This document shows positions 34,648 to 62,533 of a stretch of DNA of 64,000 bases, piece after piece. The position numbers were made by a program, and so were the translations under genes. The stretch comes from a virus: the IMG/VR virus record IMGVR_UViG_3300017991_000001, positions 62,001-126,000 of that record; one strand, 5' to 3'. The notes under the pieces are model-generated. The model was not told the origin of the DNA, ran no database searches, and was given only the letters and a program-made list of their open reading frames with translations. How positions within the stretch are numbered: the first letter of the stretch is position 1; each line of letters opens with the position of its first letter.

Positions 34648-35288
34648 GAGACGAGATCCTGGAGAAGGTGTTCAAGGGCAGCTCCGAGCAGCACGCGATG
34701 CGCTTGAAGCTGGTGACGCCCATGGAGGTGTGGGTGCAGTCGCTGCGCGGACGGCTTGATAACGAACACCGGACGGTATACGAACAGGCCCACACCACGC
34801 AGCTGCGCACGCGTGGCAGTTTCACCAGAGGCGCGGCCAGCGCGATAGCAGACTTCACGAGGGTCAAGATGAAGGAAGAGGGTTTCTGGCGGAAGATCAT
34901 GCCGCCCACGCCTATCGGCAAGTCCACAACGATGGCGCAGACTACAGTGAAGCAGGCGTACAGGAGCACGCCGAACGTGAACGGTGACGTCTTCGGTTTG
35001 GACATATGGGACTACTCGGCGCTGGGCGTGCTGTGCGACCTGTATCTGCGTTTCGAGCGCCAGCACAGGGGCGACGCCTCGTGGCGGGGTAACGAGTTCC
35101 AGTGGTTGGTCAAGGGCAAGTTGAGGAGATCGAATTCATGCAAGAAGGTTCCCACGCCGGTAAGAATGTGGTGGGAACGGCATCACGGGGAACTTCCGTT
35201 CAGGAACCTGAAGGCCTACCTGCGCAACCCGTATCTGAAGTTCGAACAGTTCGCGGACCTGCTGGAGATGCACGGGCCATGGACCTGA
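34638..35288 (+). CDS. GVLC array member 5
   Basis: A 216-residue member with an N-terminal half about 60 residues longer than its neighbours, then SALGVLCDLYL, VRMWWERHHGELPF, and FEQFADLLEMHGPW. Confidence 0.75.
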   Translation: MGVRDEILEKVFKGSSEQHAMRLKLVTPMEVWVQSLRGRLDNEHRTVYEQAHTTQLRTRGSFTRGAASAIADFTRVKMKEEGFWRKIMPPTPIGKSTTMAQTTVKQAYRSTPNVNGDVFGLDIWDYSALGVLCDLYLRFERQHRGDASWRGNEFQWLVKGKLRRSNSCKKVPTPVRMWWERHHGELPFRNLKAYLRNPYLKFEQFADLLEMHGPWT

Positions 35289-42425: not shown

Positions 42426-42790
42426 GGGCCCGATTTAGATTCGACGGCGGGTACGGAGGATGTGGCAGCACGCCGCGGTTGATCGGTTGGCCGCGTTATC
42501 AAGCCGATCACACAATCAAATGCCAAGACGAAAGTCGTGGCCGGCGACTTCGGCGCAAGCCGGGTCGCCCTCGCTGCTTAACCGACAGCGGGTGAAGGTG
42601 CCCGTACTCCTGGTCCCCAGGTAAGAACGGGAAGGTCCAAAGGGGGATGGCAGCGGGGAAGACTGCTGACGGCAACCAAAGGCTGCTGACGGGGCCGCCG
42701 GGTCCTGGGAAAGACCGAACCCGGATAAGCGTGTAGAGACCCCTTCCGAAGTTCCGGCGGACTTGGGTGCAAATCCCAACGGGTCCACCA
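42426..42790 (+). ncRNA. ssrA: tmRNA (transfer-messenger RNA)
   Basis: A complete one-piece tmRNA of 365 bases. The tRNA-like ends pair as GGGCCCG (42426-42432) with CGGGTCC (42780-42786), one G-U. They are followed by discriminator A and encoded CCA. ATTCGACGG near the 5' end and a T-arm TTGGG-TGCAAAT-CCCAA match the family. The tag frame is predicted at 42537-42581, after AAAGTC. Its product is VAGDFGASRVALAA, or without the first Val if GCC is the resume codon. The ALAA end is the usual protease signal. Confidence 0.95.
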
Positions 42791-43995: not shown

Positions 43996-44244
43996 ATGGA
44001 CATCGAGATACAGTACTGCGAGTTGTGAGGGGGTCGAGAACACGCCGACCGTGTTGTCGGTGAGATCCGCCGGTACCTGTCGCTGCCCACGAGCATCCTT
44101 GACGTGGGCAAGGGCAAGTTCGAGGTGCTGGTCAATGGCAAGACCATCTTTTCAAAGCAGAAGGCAGGACGGTTTCCGCGTCCCGGCGAGATCGCCAAGA
44201 TCTGTCGGGACACGTTCCGAAATCCGATGCAGGCATCGAAATGA
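43996..44244 (+). CDS. Selenoprotein W-like (SelW/Rdx family), in-frame TGA read as Sec
   Basis: An 82-residue frame interrupted only by TGA at 44026-44028 (residue 11). Translated through, it begins MDIEIQYCEL-U-GG, the exact CxxU redox site (Cys8, Sec11) of selenoprotein W. It goes on with the family's FEVLVNGKTIFSKQKAGRFP core. A hairpin follows the TGA (AACACG/CGTGTT inner stem, five-base loop, GTCGA/TCGGT outer stem; 44033-44061), as in bacterial SECIS elements. SelW proteins are thioredoxin-fold redox enzymes. Stop overlaps the next ATG. Confidence 0.8.
44033..44061 (+). promoter_or_regulatory. Candidate bacterial SECIS hairpin
   Basis: The inner 6-bp stem (44039-44044 with 44050-44055) and outer 5-bp stem (44033-44037 with 44057-44061, two G-U pairs) are separated by a G-G mismatch. 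The apical loop CCGAC lies 17-21 bases after the TGA. Spacing is right for SelB recognition. Known bacterial elements usually carry a G at the start of the loop, which here needs the closing G-C pair to open. Confidence 0.55.
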
Positions 44245-51766: not shown

Positions 51767-51992
51767 GCTGAAGATTATTTCGGACGGCACACCCGAAGGT
51801 ACGCGCCTGGTCGACAGTGTGACGTCGGAGGATTTGAAGTTGCCCATTAAGAGCATTGTGTGGCGGTTTGACGTGGAGAGTTTCCCAACCGCGGAAGTGA
51901 CGCTGTTGTGTCCTCTGGCTACGTTGGTGGCGGATACCGTCATAGGAGGCCCGGATGGACCGGTCGAAAACAAAGGTGGCAGTGATCGGTGA
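51759..51992 (+). CDS. Small hypothetical protein
   Basis: A 77-residue beta-rich protein (AEVTLLCPLATLVAD). Its last 38 bases overlap the heptose-kinase gene. Confidence 0.6.
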   Translation: MRRLKIISDGTPEGTRLVDSVTSEDLKLPIKSIVWRFDVESFPTAEVTLLCPLATLVADTVIGGPDGPVENKGGSDR

Positions 51993-52938
51993 CGTGATGC
52001 TGGACGTGCACATCCACTGTGACGTGACGGGCATCTCCCCCGAAGACGACATCGCCCCCAAGCTGCGCATCCGCGAGGAGACCTTGCGGCCCGGCGGAGC
52101 CGGCAACGTGGCCCTCAACCTGAAGAGCCTGGGCCTGATCGACGAGGTCTACCTCTTCGGGTTGGTCGGTGCCGACGAGGAGGGCGACATGCTCAAGGGC
52201 GCCGTTGACGGCGCCTGCATCAATTTCATGGAGCTCGTCGACACCCGGCCCACCACCGTCAAGACCCGCTACCTGACCCAGCGCGGGCGGCACCTGTGCC
52301 GGGTGGACCGCGAGTCCGTTTTTCCCGTGACGGGCCACGAGCGCAACGCGTTGGAGAAGGCCATCATGAGCCACGGCCCGTACGACATGTTCGTGATCTC
52401 AGACTACGGCAAGGGCGTGGTCACGGACGGACTGATGGAGGGGTTGCGGGAGCGCAGCGGGGAGTCCCTGCCCATCGTGGTCGACCCCAAGGGGGACGAC
52501 TTCACCAAGTACGGCGAGGTGTACGCGGTCACCCCCAATATCAAGGAGTTCCTGGGCATCATGCGGAACCGCGCCGCGGACGTCTGGAACCTGAAGTGCG
52601 CGGCCCAGAACATCGTCATCACCCGCGGCGAGGAGGGCTGCCAGCTTCTGCGCACGGACGACAGGCAGCTCTTTCAGGGCGCATACACGGGTGACCCCGT
52701 CAAGAACACCTTCCCCTCCCGGGCCCGCGAGGTGGGTGACCCCACCGGCTGCGGGGACTCCTTCGTGGCGGGGCTGGTCAGCTCGCTGGTGGTGCATACG
52801 CAGCATCCCAAGCACGAGAGGCTGCAGCAGGCCTGCCGCTTCGCCAACGCGGTGGGGGCCTGCGCCTACGACCACCAGGGGGCCCGGTCGGTCACGCTGG
52901 ATGAGGTGCAGAAAGAGTTCGAGACGTTCAACTACTAG
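51955..52938 (+). CDS. PfkB-family kinase, heptose-7-phosphate kinase (RfaE/HldE kinase domain)-like
   Basis: A 327-residue protein matching the kinase half of HldE across its length. VIGDVMLDVHIH and the ISPEDDIAP turn open it, RPGGAGNVALNLKSLG binds the sugar, SDYGKGVV and VVDPKGDDFTKYG follow, and DPTGCGDSFVAGL supplies the anion hole and catalytic Asp. HldE phosphorylates D-glycero-D-manno-heptose-7-phosphate in ADP-heptose synthesis. The cytidylyl/adenylyl half is missing. Either the phage relies on host enzymes or acts on another sugar. Confidence 0.8.
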   Translation: MDRSKTKVAVIGDVMLDVHIHCDVTGISPEDDIAPKLRIREETLRPGGAGNVALNLKSLGLIDEVYLFGLVGADEEGDMLKGAVDGACINFMELVDTRPTTVKTRYLTQRGRHLCRVDRESVFPVTGHERNALEKAIMSHGPYDMFVISDYGKGVVTDGLMEGLRERSGESLPIVVDPKGDDFTKYGEVYAVTPNIKEFLGIMRNRAADVWNLKCAAQNIVITRGEEGCQLLRTDDRQLFQGAYTGDPVKNTFPSRAREVGDPTGCGDSFVAGLVSSLVVHTQHPKHERLQQACRFANAVGACAYDHQGARSVTLDEVQKEFETFNY

Positions 52939-61819: not shown

Positions 61820-62533
61820 ATGGCCGAAGCAGATCGCGTACGCACCCTGGTCAAGAACCTGACCGACCGCCGGCGGGTCAGCTGGATGCCGCCCAACGGC
61901 CGCGAGATGGGCGACCAGGAGCAGGTCAGTGTGGACGGCGTGCTCGAGAACATCGTCGTGATGGGCATGGACGCTGCGGTCTTCGACCAGTACGTCTACG
62001 ACCTGGCCAACGACCGTGTCGAGATCACCAAGCTGGGCTACGCAGGCGGCGGCGAGGAGGAGACCGAGTCCTTCACCACGGTGGTGGGCGACGGCTCCGA
62101 GACGGTCTTCGACATCGACGCGGGCTTCAACACGGCCAACGCCAGGGTCTTCGTTTACGACACCATCAGCGGCTCCCAGATCACGGCCTACCAGTTCCAG
62201 CTGCAGACGCCCACGACCACCAGCGTGCGGCTGACCTTCAACCCCGCGCCGGCCGCGGGGCAGATCCGGGTCTTCATCTTCAGCCCGAGCACGGCGGAGG
62301 GCGAGACCTACGATTCCGGCGACATCGGCAACGGCGCCGACACTGAATTCGTGCTCGATTTGGGCTTCCCGGCGGCCCTGGCGGACATCTACGTTTTCGA
62401 TGCGCTTGGCGGAGGACCGATCTTCGGATACTCCTTGCAGCGCGCCACGCCCACCCTGAACAGCATCACGGTGGGGTTTTCCCCTGCTCCGGCTTCGGGG
62501 CAGATTCGGCTGTTCGCGTTTGAGCGGTCTTGA
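61820..62533 (+). CDS. Virion protein with two repeated beta domains
   Basis: A 237-residue protein. After an 80-residue start, two copies of a roughly 70-residue beta-rich repeat follow: VGDGSETVFDIDAGF ... NPAPAAGQIRVFIF and IGNGADTEFVLDLGF ... SPAPASGQIRLFAF. A third copy is the next gene. Likely a fibre or baseplate-decoration protein. Confidence 0.7.
   Translation: MAEADRVRTLVKNLTDRRRVSWMPPNGREMGDQEQVSVDGVLENIVVMGMDAAVFDQYVYDLANDRVEITKLGYAGGGEEETESFTTVVGDGSETVFDIDAGFNTANARVFVYDTISGSQITAYQFQLQTPTTTSVRLTFNPAPAAGQIRVFIFSPSTAEGETYDSGDIGNGADTEFVLDLGFPAALADIYVFDALGGGPIFGYSLQRATPTLNSITVGFSPAPASGQIRLFAFERS

Follow-up and report, generated by a model that had tools for sequence, protein, structure and literature searches.

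The gene at positions 43996-44244 of the window, a 64,000-nucleotide stretch (positions 62,001 to 126,000) of the IMG/VR record IMGVR_UViG_3300017991_000001, in all likelihood encodes a SelW-like selenoprotein of the Rdx family that is carried by a phage. The UGA at 44026 is very probably read as selenocysteine (Sec) by machinery borrowed from the host, so that both Sec insertion and a competent host are predicted. The sequence evidence comprises the protein family, a TGA codon aligned with that of relatives, the register of a bacterial SECIS element, the phage context, and the lack of tRNA-Sec, selB, and selD in the phage. The features of the gene are as follows.

43996-44244, plus strand: selW-like gene, 82 codons with an in-frame TGA (translation, Pfam, coding score, AlphaFold/Foldseek)
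44017-44019, plus strand: TGC, Cys8 of the CxxU redox motif, invariant in a 39-row alignment
44026-44028, plus strand: TGA, predicted selenocysteine codon (residue 11), also TGA in bacterial and viral relatives
44043-44062, plus strand: predicted bacterial SECIS upper stem-loop, in a register common to bacterial and viral relatives
44031-44035/44064-44068, plus strand: possible basal helix GGGTC/GATCC under the SECIS stem-loop, from the minimum-energy fold

The frame opens with the ATG at 43996, upstream of which there is no clear Shine-Dalgarno sequence, and closes with the TGA at 44242-44244; the next gene begins with an ATG at 44241 that overlaps this stop codon. Its readthrough product has 82 residues (MDIEIQYCELUGGREHADRVVGEIRRYLSLPTSILDVGKGKFEVLVNGKTIFSKQKAGRFPRPGEIAKICRDTFRNPMQASK). 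The original prediction had described this frame as a complete SelW/Rdx protein with CxxU at residues 8-11 and had proposed a family search; its coordinates are exact, the motif residues fall on the TGC and TGA codons listed above, and two family models match above their curated cut-offs. Pfam Rdx (PF10262) scores 44 bits (cut-off 22.6; E 2.7e-11) over residues 3-72, spanning the TGA, and TIGR02174 scores 38.6 (cut-off 34.2).

Under the phage's own codon usage, the ten codons 5′ of the TGA score +12.5 bits, and the 71 codons 3′ of it score +30 bits in frame; the other five frames give -16 to -76 bits. The second half had been said to lack a start of its own; an in-frame GTG does exist at 44104 (codon 37), but a product begun there would miss the CxxU, and to that extent the argument holds. 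The AlphaFold model, built with 39 sequences, has a pLDDT of 87.6, and its top Foldseek match is 2fa8, a SelW-related structure (E 2.8e-6, TM 0.84). As modelled, the product is a thioredoxin-like fold with CxxU after the first strand.

Among the 79 closest bacterial relatives, read in frame, the aligned codon is TGA in 75 and encodes Cys (TGC/TGT) in the other four. The patterns that found these relatives came from a small alignment in which some sequences were approximate consensuses written by hand; tblastn with the phage SelW protein then confirmed every relative. A selB gene above the curated cut-off is present in 25 of the 26 Sec-type genomes tested versus one of four Cys-type genomes. 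Viral relatives also align a TGA with that at 44026, although they had themselves been found with a TGA pattern. The SelW tree, with its long branch and few columns, does not allow a host to be assigned.

An ordinary Cys-type ancestor that underwent a TGC-to-TGA change had been offered as the alternative, and it is disfavored because the nearest relatives are Sec-type. In its strongest form, it holds that a recent nonsense mutation struck a Cys-type (CxxC) phage Rdx gene, so that the gene is now decaying or makes only a short peptide. Cys-type Rdx relatives do exist, and the two known copies of the phage gene are identical, so selection on it cannot be shown. However, the remaining frame is intact with a normal coding score, and a SECIS-type hairpin lies in exact register behind the TGA, which together with the Sec-type relatives makes a nonsense mutation improbable.

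That hairpin is not the one first proposed. The published bSECIS model has a loop of 3-9 nt, a stem of 4-16 bp, a G at the first or second loop position, a spacing of 16-37 nt, and an energy of at most -7.5 kcal/mol (PMC13188914). The hairpin at 44033-44061, to which the original prediction had assigned the SECIS role, fails these bacterial rules: its CCGAC loop breaks the loop rule and its register is off, and it is rejected in favor of the overlapping hairpin at 44043-44062, which fits both the model and the relatives. The latter has a 7-bp stem (44043-44049/44056-44062, CGCCGAC/GTCGGTG) and a 6-nt loop (44050-44055, CGTGTT, or CGUGUU in RNA) that begins C-G-U at a spacing of 21 nt, with 22 and 23 nt separating the loop G (44051) and T (44052) from the TGA. 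Its energy is -10.7 kcal/mol alone and -14.7 kcal/mol with lower pairs. The minimum-energy fold of 44029-44073 reaches -17.4 kcal/mol, and the basal helix at 44031-44068 competes with the rejected hairpin (44034-44060). Pairing probabilities on 60 nt are 0.40 for the SECIS hairpin and 0.56 for its competitor. Because the two compete energetically, the comparative register rather than the energy decides between them.

In 73 of 75 bacterial SelW genes and in all 56 distinct viral ones, 22 nt separate the UGA from the loop G, which is usually followed by U. When the register is defined as a loop G after 22 nt, then G or U, with a stem of 7 bp or more, it occurs at 29 of 35,743 codon positions (0.08%) in the phage's own genes and at 11 of 5,966 TGA trinucleotides; the 7-bp threshold is the phage gene's own value, and at 5 bp the background is 0.58%. 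Arg19, at the loop site, is encoded by CGT, which accounts for 9% of the phage's Arg codons. A bSECIS scan near the TGA had been recommended, and the hairpin does satisfy the general model, but so do 59% of the shuffled versions of this GC-rich stretch. The general model is therefore weak evidence here, and only the exact register is significant.

The SECIS-type element also bears on whether the UGA is decoded without Sec, as Trp or Cys or through a near-cognate or suppressor tRNA, in which case such an element would be unnecessary. Stop-codon recoding is not foreign to this phage, which has an amber (CUA) anticodon tRNA; however, no UCA-anticodon tRNA was found in it, and the SelW gene itself stops at TGA, as do many phage genes. 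Decoding of this kind is even less probable than a nonsense mutation.

The source record of the selenoprotein gene spans 211,084 bp. Among its PHROG matches are DNA polymerase, SbcC, and a baseplate wedge subunit, along with weak portal and tail sheath matches, on the basis of which the record is assigned to a large contractile-tailed phage. This phage is far from isolated phages, and no close relatives of its DNA polymerase were found in IMG/VR. The only other known copy of this SelW gene lies in IMGVR_UViG_3300017960_000018, which agrees at 100% throughout the 16 kb compared, including the TGA at 44026; this contig may belong to the same population and does not count as independent evidence of selection. 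The least probable explanation of all is a bacterial origin of the stretch, by misassembly into a virus record or misclassification as one: SelW is mostly a bacterial family and most neighboring genes lack a Pfam family, but phage genes lie in the flanks within the record, the neighbors are alike in strand and codon usage, and the second contig carries the same arrangement of letters over 16 kb.

Three further features of the phage were observed. A phage-encoded tmRNA precedes the SelW gene by 1.2 kb (42426-42790, plus strand; Rfam 93.6 bits, tag AKTKVVAGDFGASRVALAA). A PfkB-family kinase (51955-52938, plus strand; E 3.4e-30) resembles the heptose kinase HldE/RfaE by eye, hinting at a Gram-negative host. 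The CUA-anticodon tRNA (61 bits; L004:16106-16180, record position 35106-35180) is a possible amber suppressor, and TAG ends many genes of this phage.

No tRNA-Sec, SelB, or SelD was found in the phage record, and none was found in 44 other viral records, which are mostly fragments. Matches to tRNA-Sec below the cut-off in other viral contigs, 70-82 nt long, were judged to be ordinary tRNAs. A phage without these three components would have to use those of its host, as had been foreseen for Sec-tRNA and SelB.

SelW frames across a TGA recur in other viruses. A DNA pattern, YC-x-x-U(TGA)-N-Y-x-P-x-A, run on IMG/VR gave 88 stretches, of which 79 (within L094-L181, e.g. L095, L145, L147, L152, and L167) contain a SelW frame across TGA, encoding 58 distinct proteins, two of them cut by contig ends. 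The remaining nine are one short chance sequence and not SelW. The Cys form of the pattern (TGC/TGT) returned eight stretches and no SelW, a comparison that is limited because Cys-type Rdx proteins often carry W instead of NY. Protein-pattern scans of IMG/VR missed this class, and a search of IMG/VR with a bacterial SelW alignment gave one chance capsid match (L093). The pattern UGG..A..RV, typical of the gene described here, matched only the identical contig and, by chance, one sequence present in two contigs. Plasmids yielded weak Rdx matches only.

In the SECIS stem of these viral genes, 86% of cells are paired versus 64% in shuffles, and the covariation score is 0.529 versus 0.145 (0 of 500 shuffles), with every slid register far lower. 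Codons after the TGA are under purifying selection, with a median dN/dS of 0.21 over 68 pairs, many of which are not independent. Five of the contigs have both a T4-type portal gene and a PHROG 2 match, which we take to be the terminase, and among the genes flanking viral SelW are UvsX, ribonucleotide reductase, helicases, and DNA polymerase. By eye, a glutaredoxin-like frame lies just downstream of one viral SelW gene (L094:7151-7381, plus strand), a single case that fits thiol redox chemistry, and a glutamine-synthetase-like frame (L095:3504-4508, plus strand) adjoins SelW on a 216-kb viral contig with a T4-type portal. A rough tree places the viral genes in about three clusters and this phage's gene apart, among bacteria; its weak support makes any count of acquisitions tentative.

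The original prediction had held phage selenoproteins to be rarely if ever described. This agrees with tblastn against INPHARED, where this phage's protein and three marine viral SelW types had no match, but not with the recurrence of such genes in IMG/VR. SelW selenoproteins of phages seem to form a recurrent, apparently undescribed class.

A virus-encoded selenoprotein that uses host Sec machinery is known from a poxvirus, the glutathione peroxidase MC066L of molluscum contagiosum. It differs from phage SelW in belonging to a eukaryotic virus and another protein family, with a eukaryotic SECIS in the 3′UTR. In bacteria, SelW-like selenoproteins are well documented, and marine surveys count more of them than of any other family (PMC1088965, PMC2398784), including in the GOS data (PMC2398784). 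The phage gene shares with bacterial SelW-like genes (PF10262/TIGR02174) the fold, the CxxU, the TGA codon, and the SECIS G-U register, with identity of at most about 43-47% to the relatives found; here, however, the carrier is a phage without tRNA-Sec, SelB, or SelD. A later marine survey found few or no viral sequences outside the families it named (PMC9402790). Phages have likewise been connected with selenocysteine through tRNA-Sec genes, reported in Basilisk-like phages (PMC6145125) and huge wastewater phages (PMC10747093). The passages concerned describe the tRNA only and no phage selenoprotein, the reverse of the present case of a selenoprotein gene without tRNA-Sec. No description of a phage selenoprotein was found in the literature searched, most subscription papers lying outside the search.

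During infection, host SelB carrying host Sec-tRNA would bind the stem-loop in the phage mRNA, which starts 15 nt after the UGA at 44026. Sec would be inserted at residue 11, yielding an 82-residue thioredoxin-fold protein with CxxU whose probable role in the infected cell is thiol/selenol redox chemistry. The phage probably acquired the gene, already in its Sec form, from a Sec-decoding bacterium, in an event separate from the origin of the marine viral SelW genes.

Stop-based gene callers cut such genes at the UGA, and phage selenoproteins have probably been missed for this reason. SelW is likely a recurrent phage-borne gene that was acquired more than once and kept as Sec rather than Cys, which would make some phages dependent on the selenium metabolism of their hosts and would mean that viruses contribute part of the abundant marine SelW selenoproteome now attributed to bacteria. 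If confirmed, some phages place a selenium-dependent enzyme under the control of host SelB, and marine selenoprotein surveys may include viral genes. Phage fitness would then be tied to selenium supply and to hosts with a Sec pathway, offering a cue for host prediction.
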